IMG/VR virus record: IMGVR_UViG_3300043424_000578
Location: 1-34,386 of that record
Length of the DNA: 34,386 nt
DNA from: a virus
Strand: one strand, 5' to 3'
The position numbers and the translations under genes were made by a program. The notes under the pieces are model-generated. The model had not been told where the DNA came from. It searched no databases and saw nothing but the letters and a program-made list of their open reading frames with translations. Below are positions 1 through 34,386 of the stretch, one piece after another (within the stretch, counting starts at the first letter, position 1; each line of letters starts with the position of its first letter).

Positions 1-136
1 AAATTTACGCCAAAGCTCAAGCGTGCTTTGAGTTTTAAGGCAAAATCTAAACATCCCGCCGACAGATTTGCCAAATTCCGCAAACCCTCCCGTCCCCCTC
101 CGTGCTCTCTGTGTCCTCCGTGGTTAAATCCTAATC

Positions 137-159
137 TTTGACACGCCCGCCGAGGCGTG
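137..159 (+). promoter_or_regulatory. TTTGACA plus start-codon hairpin, gpW-like gene (copy 1)
   Basis: TTTGACAC lies at 137-144. It is followed by the stem CACGCC (142-147) / GGCGTG (154-159) around the loop cgccga. The GTG start codon of the gpW-like gene is the last three bases of the stem. In the second copy (34075-34097) the stem is the same but the loop is ccctcc. No Shine-Dalgarno sequence precedes the start. Confidence 0.6.
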
Positions 160-432
160 ACCGACCTCGACAAAATCTCCGGCGTTAAAGCCTTCCTCCG
201 CCGCACCAAGACCACCGCCGAACTCGAAGCCCTCGCGCTCGCCACCTTCGCGTCGGCCACCGAGGAAGTCGTCATCACATCCCTCGGCTCCGAAGGCGCA
301 AGCAGCGCCGGACAGATCAGCTTCCCCAAGTGGCTCCTCCTCCAAGCCGTCGAAGAACTCCTCTCCGAAGGCACCCACGGCCGCCAGCTCGGCACCTTCG
401 CCAACTTCGGCGCAGTGACCTCCCCCGTTTGA
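157..432 (+). CDS. gpW-like head-tail joining protein (copy 1)
   Basis: This 91-residue protein starts at GTG inside a hairpin. It is predicted helical at both ends, with a central ITSLGSEG segment resembling the strand-turn region of lambda gpW. Its place between the terminase genes (across the circular junction) and the portal gene is where lambda carries W. gpW sits in the portal vertex and prepares the filled head for tail joining. The family assignment rests on gene order and a weak overall pattern. A variant with about ten substitutions is encoded at 34095-34370; the last 36 residues are identical because the DNA there is identical. The stop TGA lies inside the TTTGACAC motif that precedes the portal gene. 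Confidence 0.6.
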   Translation: MTDLDKISGVKAFLRRTKTTAELEALALATFASATEEVVITSLGSEGASSAGQISFPKWLLLQAVEELLSEGTHGRQLGTFANFGAVTSPV

Positions 433-457
433 CACGCCGCCGAGGGCAATGCCCTCG
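428..457 (+). promoter_or_regulatory. TTTGACA plus start-codon hairpin, portal gene
   Basis: TTTGACAC at 428-435 contains the stop codon of the upstream gene (430-432). A 7-bp perfect stem follows, CGAGGGC (441-447) / GCCCTCG (451-457), around the loop AAT. The portal ATG (449-451) spans the loop and the first stem base. No Shine-Dalgarno sequence is present, so ribosomes finishing the upstream gene may be needed to open the start. Confidence 0.6.
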
Positions 458-20118: not shown

Positions 20119-20846
20119 CCCCAATCAAGAAATGGAAAAAGTGGATGGCCGTGGGATGCAGCCACGGCGCACAGATCGATCCCGAAGCCCGCGCCGCCGT
20201 GCTGAAATTCAAGGCCGCATGGAAGCCCCACACCACCCTGCACCTCGGCGATTTCATTGACCTCTCCGCATTCCGCGCCGGAGCCGTGCGCGACAGCAAC
20301 GACGCCGACCACGCCGCCGATGTCGCAGGCGACCTGATGGCCGGCATCGAGTTCCTGCACGAGCTCGAGCCCAACCAAATCCTCTGCGGAAACCACGAAG
20401 CCAGACTCTGGAAATTTTCCAAAAGCCCGAACGCCCTCCTCGCTTACGCCGCCAATCTCACGATCCAAAAAATCGAAGAGACCGCCAAAAAACTACGCGC
20501 TCCGCTCACCCCCTACGGCATCCGAAATTTCGTCGAACTCGGCGGCACAAAATTCGTGCATGGCTCGATGTTCAATGTCTCCGCCATCCGCGACCACGCC
20601 GAAACCTATGGCAATGTCGTCATGGCCCACCTCCACCGAGTCGGATGGGAACGCGCTCGCAACATCGACGGCGCCTCTGGCTACTGCGTCGGCATGCTCG
20701 CCAACTTCGACATGCCGTATGCCGCCGAACGCCGCGCCACCCTCGCGTGGTCGCAAGGCTTCGCCTTCGGCCACTACTGCGACAATTCCCTCACCGTTAA
20801 TTTATGCGAACGAAAAAAAGGCCAGCCCTGGCTTCTCCCGATCTAA
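20115..20846 (+). CDS. Calcineurin-like metallophosphoesterase
   Basis: This 243-residue protein starts at ATG 20115. The metallophosphoesterase motifs come in order: GCSHG (residues 14-18), LGDFID (44-49), CGNHE (near 95), VHGS, and MAHLHR. In the usual first motif (DxH) the Asp position is Cys15 here, while the metal Asp46 and the GNHE motif are intact. The family cleaves phosphomono- or diesters with two metals; phage members may act on DNA ends or nucleotides. It overlaps the next gene by 43 bases. Confidence 0.8.
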   Translation: MTPIKKWKKWMAVGCSHGAQIDPEARAAVLKFKAAWKPHTTLHLGDFIDLSAFRAGAVRDSNDADHAADVAGDLMAGIEFLHELEPNQILCGNHEARLWKFSKSPNALLAYAANLTIQKIEETAKKLRAPLTPYGIRNFVELGGTKFVHGSMFNVSAIRDHAETYGNVVMAHLHRVGWERARNIDGASGYCVGMLANFDMPYAAERRATLAWSQGFAFGHYCDNSLTVNLCERKKGQPWLLPI

Positions 20847-21118
20847 GCGCCGCCTGGGCGAATTTTTACGAGTCCACCAAAGAGGACGACTTGGCCGCCT
20901 ATGAATCCGCAGGCTGGAAGACCATCGCCAGCATCGCCGACGAATCCGGCCAATCACTTGCAACAGTCAGTTCGCAAATGAAAACGCTAACCACGCAAAA
21001 ATCTTTCGAGAAAAAAATAATCCGCGCCAAGTGCAGCAACGGCGTCCGGGAGGTGGCCATTTTTCGGCCGGTGAAAAGCAAGAAACAGGGCAACAGCGGG
21101 CAACAGCGTAGCAAGTAG
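20804..21118 (+). CDS. Small helix-turn-helix-like protein beside attP
   Basis: This 104-residue basic protein has a likely winged-helix element: WKTIASIADESGQSLATVSSQMKTL (residues 38-62) reads like two helices separated by a turn. It overlaps the phosphoesterase by 43 bases and ends just before the attachment site. Its last codons are made from the tandem GGGCAACAGC repeat thought to bind integrase. A role as a regulator or directionality factor is possible from its place, not from clear homology. Confidence 0.55.
   Translation: MRTKKRPALASPDLSAAWANFYESTKEDDLAAYESAGWKTIASIADESGQSLATVSSQMKTLTTQKSFEKKIIRAKCSNGVREVAIFRPVKSKKQGNSGQQRSK
21088..21107 (+). repeat. Tandem GGGCAACAGC pair, left of attP (arm-site candidate)
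   Basis: Two direct copies of GGGCAACAGC lie at 21088-21097 and 21098-21107. A similar pair, GGGCAACAC and GGGCAACAG, lies at 21308-21316 and 21317-21325 on the other side of the attachment core. Tyrosine integrases of the lambda type bind such arm repeats on both sides of the core. Confidence 0.5.
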
Positions 21119-21138
21119 TTGGTAATCAGAAGCAGTAA

Positions 21139-21193
21139 AGCGACTCAAAATCGCGTTTCTCACGAAGTGTCGGTTCGATCCCGACCGCCGGTA
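21139..21193 (+). other. attP: attP core: 3' part of a tRNA-Leu(CAA) gene
   Basis: The sequence folds as the last two thirds of a tRNA. The anticodon stem is AGCGA/TCGC(G) with loop CTCAAAA (21144-21150), so the anticodon is CAA. A long class II variable arm (21156-21168, TTC/GAA) is typical of leucine tRNAs. The T-arm is GTCGG/CCGAC with loop TTCGATC (21169-21185), and the acceptor strand CGCCGGT plus A ends at 21193. No matching 5' half is present upstream, so it is not a working tRNA gene. It is best read as the attachment site that restores the host tRNA-Leu after integration. CCA is not encoded. Confidence 0.8.
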
Positions 21194-21204
21194 ATCTCTT
21201 CAAT

Positions 21205-21248
21205 AAAAGCCCGCAGAGGTGCATAAATAAAGCCTCTGCGGGCTTTTT
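21205..21248 (+). terminator. Intrinsic terminator between attP and integrase
   Basis: A perfect stem AAAAGCCCGCAGAGG / CCTCTGCGGGCTTTT (21205-21219 with 21233-21247) ends in a T run. It would stop late transcription before the integrase gene and, in a prophage, follow the restored tRNA. The sequence is nearly symmetrical and could also work on the - strand. Confidence 0.9.
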
Positions 21249-21307
21249 CGTTTCTGAATTGTTTCGACTCGTTTTGACTGCTTGTGACATTAAAAGGTTG
21301 CCTTCAC

Positions 21308-21325
21308 GGGCAACACGGGCAACAG
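21308..21325 (+). repeat. Tandem GGGCAACA pair, right of attP (arm-site candidate)
   Basis: GGGCAACAC and GGGCAACAG are joined head to tail immediately upstream of the integrase start. They match the pair at 21088-21107. Binding of integrase here would also cover its own start region and could repress it. Confidence 0.5.
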
Positions 21326-21336
21326 ATGAAATTGCT

Positions 21337-22371
21337 ATGGCAACACGACTTTTGTCCGAGGGAACGCGATTCTTTGTTTCCTTCTACCCGGCGCGGCCCT
21401 CGACCCCGTGGAAAATGGAAATTCCTGCGGCGGTGGCTGGCTCTAGGATTCGCCGCTTTTTTGCGGAGGAGGCTACCGCTTACATTGAGGGCGGTCGGCT
21501 GGTGGCTCAGATCAAGGAGCAGGGGACGGATTCGCTGAAGGAGCCGACGGGCGTGTCGGTGGCTCGGGCGGTGGCGATGTTCAATGGTCAATTTTCGGAT
21601 TACTCAAAATCGCATCGCGAGAAAGTGGAGAAGGTGACGCGGTGGATCGCGGAGGGATTCAGCGGGCCGCTCAAGGGCGTGACTCCGGTGAGGTGCCTGG
21701 AGTGGTTCAAGACGGTGAAAGGGTGCTCGACTTCGCGGGCGACGATCTACCGCTACGCTCGGATGTTTTTCAACTGGTGCGTGAAGATCGACCTGCTGGA
21801 CAAGTCGCCGTGGCGGGCGGTGGTTTGTCCTGACTCGACGCCGAAAAGAAACATCCTCACTCATGAGGAAATGGTGACGCTTTTATCAGACGAGGCGATG
21901 AGCGACACCCTGCGGGCTTCGATTTTGCTCGGTGGATTTGCGGGCCTTCGGACGGTGGAGATTTTGCGGCTGCGGTGGGAGGATGTGGAGAAGGGACAGA
22001 TTTATATCGGGCCGGAAGTGGCGAAGCAGAAAAAGAAAGGCAACCGTGAGAGGCTCGTGGACATGACGGAGCCGTTGAAAAAACGCATGAAACTTTTCAA
22101 CGGAAAGCGCGGGCCGCTGGTGGCCGGCACGGAGGCGGAATTTTACAAGGAGCGGCGGGCGCTCGTGAAGCGGCTTCGGCGGGAGGGCGCGGTGGCTTGG
22201 AAGACATTTCCAGAAAACTCGCTCCGGCATTCTTTCGCCACCTACCATCTCGGCAAATCCAACGACCCCGGCCGCACGGCTTACCAGATGGGCACAAGCA
22301 TTCAGCTAGTCATTTCGACATACGCCGTGCCTGCACGCCGGGCGGATTGGCGGAGTTGGTGGAAGATTTAA
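21337..22371 (+). CDS. int: Tyrosine recombinase, phage integrase
   Basis: From ATG 21337 the protein has 344 residues. An in-frame TTG at 21259 would add 26 residues but lies at the end of the terminator region. The N-terminal half is a SAM-like core-binding domain. Catalytic residues: Arg205 in GFAGLRTVEILRL, Arg297 and His298 in NSLRHSFATYHL, and Tyr329 in STYAVPARR. The HxxR position carries Asn and the usual MGH/MGN carries MGT, as in the integrase subgroup with NxLRHS, MGNS and a C-terminal WW. It should recombine the tRNA-Leu attP next to it with the host attB. Its DNA is G-rich, unlike the late genes. Confidence 0.93.
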   Translation: MATRLLSEGTRFFVSFYPARPSTPWKMEIPAAVAGSRIRRFFAEEATAYIEGGRLVAQIKEQGTDSLKEPTGVSVARAVAMFNGQFSDYSKSHREKVEKVTRWIAEGFSGPLKGVTPVRCLEWFKTVKGCSTSRATIYRYARMFFNWCVKIDLLDKSPWRAVVCPDSTPKRNILTHEEMVTLLSDEAMSDTLRASILLGGFAGLRTVEILRLRWEDVEKGQIYIGPEVAKQKKKGNRERLVDMTEPLKKRMKLFNGKRGPLVAGTEAEFYKERRALVKRLRREGAVAWKTFPENSLRHSFATYHLGKSNDPGRTAYQMGTSIQLVISTYAVPARRADWRSWWKI

Positions 22372-33934: not shown

Positions 33935-33988
33935 GCTTTGCTTAAAATTTACGCCAAAGCTCAAGCGTGCTTTGAGTTTTAAGGCAAA
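33935..33988 (+). promoter_or_regulatory. Alternative-pairing leader hairpins
   Basis: CAAAGC (33955-33960) can pair with GCTTTG on its left (33935-33940) or its right (33969-33974). TTTGCTTAAAA (33938-33947) can also pair with TTTTAAGGCAAA (33977-33988). The right-hand hairpin ends near TTTT. Mutually exclusive structures downstream of a promoter can act as an attenuator. The same sequence is at 11-30 in the left copy. Confidence 0.4.
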
Positions 33989-34074
33989 ATCTAAACATCC
34001 CGCCGACAGATTTGCCAAATTCCGCAAACCCTCCCGTCCCCCTCCGTGCTCTCCGTGTCCTCCGTGGTTAATCT

Positions 34075-34097
34075 TTTGACACGCCCCCTCCGGCGTG
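34075..34097 (+). promoter_or_regulatory. TTTGACA plus start-codon hairpin, gpW-like gene (copy 2)
   Basis: TTTGACAC (34075-34082) is followed by the stem CACGCC (34080-34085) / GGCGTG (34092-34097) with loop ccctcc. The loop differs from copy 1 at most positions while the stem is conserved. The GTG start (34095-34097) closes the stem. Confidence 0.6.
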
Positions 34098-34370
34098 ACC
34101 GAACTCGACAAAATCTCCGGCGTGAAATCCTTCCTCCGCCGCACAAAATCAAATGCCGAACTCGAAGCCCTCGCGCTCTCGACCTTCGCGTCGGCCACCG
34201 AGGAAGTCGTCATTACCAGCATCGGCACCGAAGGAACATCCTCGTCCGGCCAAGTCTCTTTCCCCAAGTGGCTCCTCCTCCAAGCCGTCGAAGAACTCCT
34301 CTCCGAAGGCACCCACGGCCGCCAGCTCGGCACCTTCGCCAACTTCGGCGCAGTGACCTCCCCCGTTTGA
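34095..34370 (+). CDS. gpW-like head-tail joining protein (variant copy 2)
   Basis: This 91-residue variant of the protein at 157-432 carries conservative changes (for example Asp3 to Glu, Leu43 to Ile, Ile54 to Val) confined to its first 55 residues. It is the copy whose upstream region connects to the terminase genes, so in the circular genome it leads into the portal gene. The two copies probably come from two co-existing strains and do not need to be a true duplication. Confidence 0.6.
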   Translation: MTELDKISGVKSFLRRTKSNAELEALALSTFASATEEVVITSIGTEGTSSSGQVSFPKWLLLQAVEELLSEGTHGRQLGTFANFGAVTSPV

Positions 34371-34386
34371 CACGCCGCCGAGGGCA

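Follow-up and report, generated by a model that had tools for sequence, protein, structure and literature searches.

The stretch of DNA analysed here (the window, 34,386 bp) encodes a portal protein, a head protease, tail proteins, a DnaB-type helicase and terminase (Pfam, PHROG), a gene set that indicates a tailed phage. The gene encoding a tyrosine integrase of 344 aa is found at 21337..22371 (PF00589, E 1.2e-7; PHROG integrase, E 5e-23) on the + strand, as are all the features described below. The int frame is open from a TTG at 21259; the start was taken as the ATG at 21337, with which the relatives agree, and this places the right-hand pair of the repeats described below just upstream of the gene. 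No strong promoter was called near int by promoter prediction. Further upstream the ORF list gives a small frame of 104 aa (20804..21118), the last codons of which hold the left-hand pair of repeats and the product of which has no Pfam or PHROG match. In L003, L004, L010, L012 and L019 this ORF is swapped for an unrelated-looking frame while the repeats behind it stay, and a different gene occupies its place in the phages of arm class B, defined below.

The window has four exact copies of the motif GGGCAACA, at 21088, 21098, 21308 and 21317, and no others. The expectation for the whole window was 1.1 copies in dinucleotide shuffles, and when the local 600 bp were mononucleotide-shuffled no 8-mer reached four copies within 240 bp in any of 2000 shuffles. 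The left pair is a tandem of GGGCAACAGC GGGCAACAGC with a spacing of 10 bp (21088..21107) and is assigned as the P-arm pair of putative arm-type integrase sites. The right pair, assigned as the P'-arm pair, is a tandem of GGGCAACAC GGGCAACA with a spacing of 9 bp (21308..21324), ending about 13 bp 5' of the int start codon. A possible extra arm-like site, TGGCAACA, with one mismatch and weak, overlaps the start codon itself (21338..21345) and is kept in close relatives. The first-pass annotation had proposed that two tandem repeat pairs flank a tRNA fragment beside the integrase gene, and the four exact copies at only these places bear this out. It had also called the arms symmetric, which does not hold in the inverted sense: all four are direct repeats on the + strand, and the pair spacings in the window are unequal (10 bp left, 9 bp right), both values being conserved in relatives.

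Between the two arm pairs lies a segment of 54 bp, GCGACTCAAAATCGCGTTTCTCACGAAGTGTCGGTTCGATCCCGACCGCCGGTA (21140..21193), which matches the 3' portion of tRNA-Leu(CAA), a class II tRNA, beginning in the 5' strand of the anticodon stem and ending with the discriminator base. It comprises half of the anticodon stem, the loop CTCAAAA (21144..21150, between GCGA and TCGC), a long variable arm, the T arm and the acceptor strand, and its assignment as the attP core rests on identity with host tRNA genes. By analogy with known tyrosine integrases the loop is likely to be the 7-bp overlap region in which strand exchange would take place. No complete tRNA was found in the window by ARAGORN and the Rfam scan of the window gave no match. 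When a host 5' half was joined to the window from 21140, ARAGORN returned a tRNA-Leu(CAA), and the phage half by itself returned none. The earlier description of a tRNA-Leu(CAA) 3' part lacking its 5' half thus stands, with its left bound moved from 21139 to 21140, one base shorter.

A hairpin absent from the first-pass annotation follows 12 nt past the tRNA 3' end, between the core and the P' arm (21205..21247). It has perfect arms of 15 nt and a T tail, with a predicted RNA fold of -29.4 kcal/mol (z -8.1), and it has the features of a phage-borne intrinsic terminator. The hairpin is kept in relatives, including the integrated junction L079 and the distant L069, and it may replace the terminator displaced from the host tRNA gene. 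Its outer stem, CCCGCAGA/TCTGCGGG, is nearly invariant even across integrases that are only about 50% identical, a conservation that exceeds the needs of a terminator.

Relatives were collected in several ways. The integrase query gave 15 IMG/VR loci and the core pattern 32 contigs, the two sets overlapping in part. A scan of GTDB yielded two Verrucomicrobia MAGs with the integrase, at 97% in one (L019) and 75% in the other (L018). Comparison of the attP with the phage collection by blastn gave no match, and the best phage-protein matches are just 24-31% identical, approximately, over part of the length, so that the phage has no named close relative. The layout of arms and core, with near-constant spacing, is common to about 28 relatives. 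The P' arms of the window lie at +167/+176 from the core and are near-constant across the relatives; the P arms lie at -53/-43 in class A relatives and at -55/-45 or -54/-44 in most others. Among the attPs with both arms the left pair has a spacing of 10 bp and starts 53-55 bp ahead of CGACTC, and the right pair has a spacing of 9 bp and usually starts 166-169 bp past it. The inner arms are 199-212 bp apart and fall into two groups offset by about one helical turn: in L013, L080 and L094 the distance from core to right pair is shorter by about 11 bp, roughly one turn, and L015 is similar, with one extra imperfect arm copy. The automatic sorting had listed L015 as an attR because its terminator differs; this was rejected, as its arms and integrase make it an attP.

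At the tRNA-Leu(CAA) site three arm classes were found, with the arm sequences GGGCAACA (class A, that of the window), TGCCACAA (class B) and TGGCACAA (class C). Class A integrases have NSLRH in box II, with Asn in place of the usual His (residue 294 in the window), and lack the box III His, reading MG-TS (residues 319-320) where the others have MGHT or MGHS. As both of the usual active-site histidines are missing, the recombinase activity of class A is not certain. The catalytic domain itself is recognizable as that of a tyrosine recombinase by Pfam, PHROG and fold. An AF2 model built from 8 rows was poor (pLDDT 65) and a model from 19 sequences, with a mean pLDDT of 86.7, was used instead. 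In this model codons 11-62 (21367..21522) form a predicted N-terminal arm-binding domain of three strands and a helix (E13-16, E25-29, E38-42, H45-62). The best full-length fold matches are the lambda Int structures 1z1g and 1z1b, residues 1..340 being aligned to 1z1b_A with the N-terminus included (overall rmsd 7.8, 14% identity). A profile search of solved structures by sequence gave weak Xer-type matches only, apart from a single chain annotated as a ribosome-associated protein (E 5e-4); this match was set aside.

The relation between arms and integrase is most visible in L016, L098 and L105, which have class B arms at all four places. In L016 and L105 the catalytic part shows about 67-76% identity with class A and 50-55% with class B, whereas the first 35 residues or so show about 39-52% and 64-73%, respectively. 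Read along the DNA, this lineage is a mosaic: a class B upstream gene and P arms are followed by a class A spacer, core and terminator, then by class B P' arms and N-terminus, and finally by a class A catalytic part. An assembly chimera is unlikely, since the class B arms are common to three separate contigs. Across 17 integrases, which include relatives at other tRNAs and for whose distant members the arm registers were set manually, arm distance was correlated with N-terminal distance when the catalytic part was held fixed (partial r 0.69, p 0.0002, a value that is indicative only, in view of these registers and because the integrases are related and not independent). With the N-terminus held fixed the correlation with catalytic distance was absent (partial r 0.04, p 0.32). 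As far as sequence comparison can tell, the arm sequence follows the N-terminal 35 residues, approximately, of the integrase and not the catalytic part. On balance we favour the idea that these residues form an arm-reading module that is swapped together with all four arms, the core, terminator and catalytic domain forming a second module interleaved with it. If this is true, the series GGGCAACA, TGCCACAA, TGGCACAA, GGACAACA, GGGCTACA, GGGCCACA and others would constitute a readable arm-recognition code. Residue 26 in strand 2 is a candidate arm contact, being Val where arm base 3 is C and Lys where it is G or A.

This covariation also bears on whether the GGGCAACA pairs could be a regulatory operator, of int or of the upstream gene, instead of integrase arms. 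The right pair lies so close to the int start that binding there would also regulate int. However, an operator would not explain why identical pairs flank the core at near-constant distances, nor why all four repeats change together following the integrase N-terminal domain, and autoregulation is compatible with arm sites without being an exclusive role. A purely regulatory role is highly improbable, and the repeats are best regarded as putative arm-type sites which flank the core and are distinct from the core sites.

The putative hosts, all of them MAGs, are Verrucomicrobiota. Host tRNA-Leu(CAA) genes with a matching 3' part had been anticipated from the window alone, and such genes are present, complete, in Verrucomicrobiota genomes: core matches were obtained in 37 genomes among 97 relatives searched, and those inspected were mostly whole tRNA-Leu(CAA) genes. 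The identity between attP and attB starts at 21140, inside the anticodon stem, and stops at the discriminator base. Differences in sequence from host to host are mirrored by differences among the attPs, with exact allele pairs between L083 and its relatives and G012/G014, between L098/L105 and G002/G016, between L091 and G010, and between L093 and G023. The attP thus carries a tRNA 3' part identical to attB in several exact pairs, as in tRNA-targeting integrative elements of the 3'-half type. The window shares its core allele with an attR of MAG G003. A search of G003 itself for a full tRNA 5' half gave none, probably because this MAG is incomplete. In L019 and L018 the attP is intact, with no junction, and a complete tRNA-Leu(CAA) is found elsewhere in the genome of each MAG. 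The core of L019 (9805-9857; a phage binned in MAG G002) differs from G002's own tRNA-Leu(CAA) allele (L035), although an unpaired T-T is present in the T stem of both; this mismatch suggests that phage-host binning or host matching may be inexact here.

Integrated forms were found among the relatives. L079, from IMG/VR, is an attL, in which host flank, a complete tRNA-Leu(CAA), the phage terminator, P' arms and int follow each other; its left host flank resembles the empty sites of G012 and G014 at about 80% identity. Contig C411 of G003 (L070/L078) is an attR, in which phage DNA with P arms and core gives way to host DNA that opens with what appears to be the host tRNA's own terminator. In that MAG, contig C78 has the same P-core start and continues into P' arms and integrase, so that the two contigs together look as expected were attP and attR both present in the sample. 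The host flank of the G003 attR had one 2-kb match to G002, of 70% and in inverted orientation, which was not used as evidence of synteny. Two further attR junctions are L082, with a short host-flank resemblance (27 bp to G010), and L088, judged by eye. The arms are of class B or C in all relatives whose junctions show a rebuilt tRNA or a displaced fragment; the search for an attL whose integrase is close to that of the window gave none, and the rebuilding of the tRNA by the window is a modelled join only. The expectation of prophages at tRNA-Leu(CAA) has accordingly been confirmed in relatives (attL L079; attR L070/L078, L082 and L088), none of them carrying the window's integrase class.

An attR likewise has the 3' half of a tRNA and lacks the 5' half (L070, L082 and L088 are examples), and the window could in principle be host chromosomal DNA, or the remnant of a prophage, whose tRNA fragment is a leftover attR. 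The fragment of the window leads, however, into the phage terminator, P' arms and integrase and not into host flank, phage sequence is continuous on both sides, and the structural phage genes are on the same contig. Moreover, the two ends of the window (1-448 and 33945-34386) repeat each other with 91% identity over 449 bp. Contig C38 of G002 holds this end region once, window positions 34073-34376 and 137 onward mapping from about 9290, and it runs contiguously across the window ends, its own break lying near window 26.5-26.8 kb. Given the single copy in C38 and a break elsewhere, the most plausible view of the window is that mixed strains were assembled into one circularly permuted phage genome, in which the attP is intact. 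A host or remnant origin is scarcely credible, and the earlier view that the molecule is the free or circular form is supported by C38 crossing the ends and by the intact attP in both the window and C38.

Taken together, the stretch is almost certainly the attP of a lambda-type, arm-binding (heterobivalent) tyrosine integrase, and the phage would insert in the tRNA-Leu(CAA) gene of Verrucomicrobiota. The N-terminal domain of the integrase would bind both arm pairs and its core-binding and catalytic domains would bind the core, the arms being bridged through a bend of about 210 bp of DNA, probably made by a host bending protein. Integration would combine the host 5' half with the phage 3' half into an intact tRNA at attL, as is seen in the sequence of L079, and the phage hairpin would then terminate the tRNA gene. 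The host 3' half and the host terminator, both displaced, would land at attR. In actinobacteriophages tRNA-dependent lysogeny is known at the same isotype, tRNA-Leu-CAA (PMC10865867), and such a strategy, or a phage-encoded tRNA gene, might be considered in place of host tRNA rebuilding. The known cases have cores of about 8-10 bp and a complete phage tRNA, whereas here the core is 54 bp, the window holds no tRNA gene and the joined tRNA is predicted to be intact, which makes this alternative most improbable compared with the rebuilding of the host tRNA.

Related integrases are not confined to tRNA-Leu(CAA). The order-wide search found them beside complete tRNAs Ser(CGA), Arg(ACG), Leu(TAA), Leu(TAG) and Arg(TCT), and one beside a tyrosine-like tRNA cut by the contig end; family integrases for which the reading frame was recovered have a tandem repeat near the int start. 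The architecture is thus a family trait in which targets and arms change. One Verrucomicrobiota genome, G048, has six matches to the integrase family (L112, L116-L120), 5/6 beside a complete tRNA (Ser-CGA, Leu-TAA, Arg-ACG, Leu-TAG and Arg-TCT) and the remaining one, L118, beside a tRNA-Tyr-like 3' end and with an internal TAG. In addition, contig C47 of G001 (L115) has a second phage-like attP of that genome, consisting of a tRNA-Ser(CGA) 3' half with GGACAACA arm pairs.

The integrase is like that of lambda in its three-domain, heterobivalent organization and unlike it in arm layout. The attB of lambda is not a tRNA gene. Closer counterparts are found in mycobacteriophages. In cluster J phages (Omega, BAKA) the attP, at tRNA-Leu-CAA, has a core of 44 bp and arm sites that are paired direct repeats (PMC3706429, PMC10865867). 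As in the window, the core there is the 3' half of tRNA-Leu(CAA), the tRNA is rebuilt at attL, the arm pairs P1/P2 and P3/P4 (10-bp direct repeats) flank the core, and the tyrosine integrase has an N-terminal arm domain. The attP is however located 3' of int in cluster J and 5' of int here, and the host belongs to another phylum. Moreover, the cluster J authors saw no systematic arm differences matching differences in the N-terminal domain (PMC3706429, PMC10865867), whereas this relation is clear in the family of the window. For cluster K1 (CrimD) a putative stem-loop terminator between core and P3 was described and N-terminal residues were proposed to follow arm changes (PMC3203893). Cluster K1 shares with the window the core 5' of int, two arm-repeat pairs and a stem-loop terminator past the core; it differs in that P3/P4 are inverted relative to P1/P2, all arms being direct here, and few of its arm positions vary. 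The attPs of metagenomic phages, including a Verrucomicrobia phage, have been used for host assignment through their tRNA fragments (PMC3861242); the same inference is made here and is checked through attL/attR junctions and allele-level matching. The arrangement is thus lambda-type and a close match to clusters J and K1, its mechanism is ordinary and this kind of site is well known. What is new is the host and site of this family, the junction evidence, the allele tag and the natural co-movement of the arms with the N-terminal domain.

For this uncultured phage family the host group and the exact insertion site can now be named, backed by junctions, and the integrase with its attP could serve as a site-specific integration tool for Verrucomicrobiota. 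The tRNA allele inside the attP is in addition a host tag, apparently finer than the phylum level. Moreover, with the arm variants and the L016-type mosaic at hand, how integrase N-terminal domains read their arms becomes directly testable.
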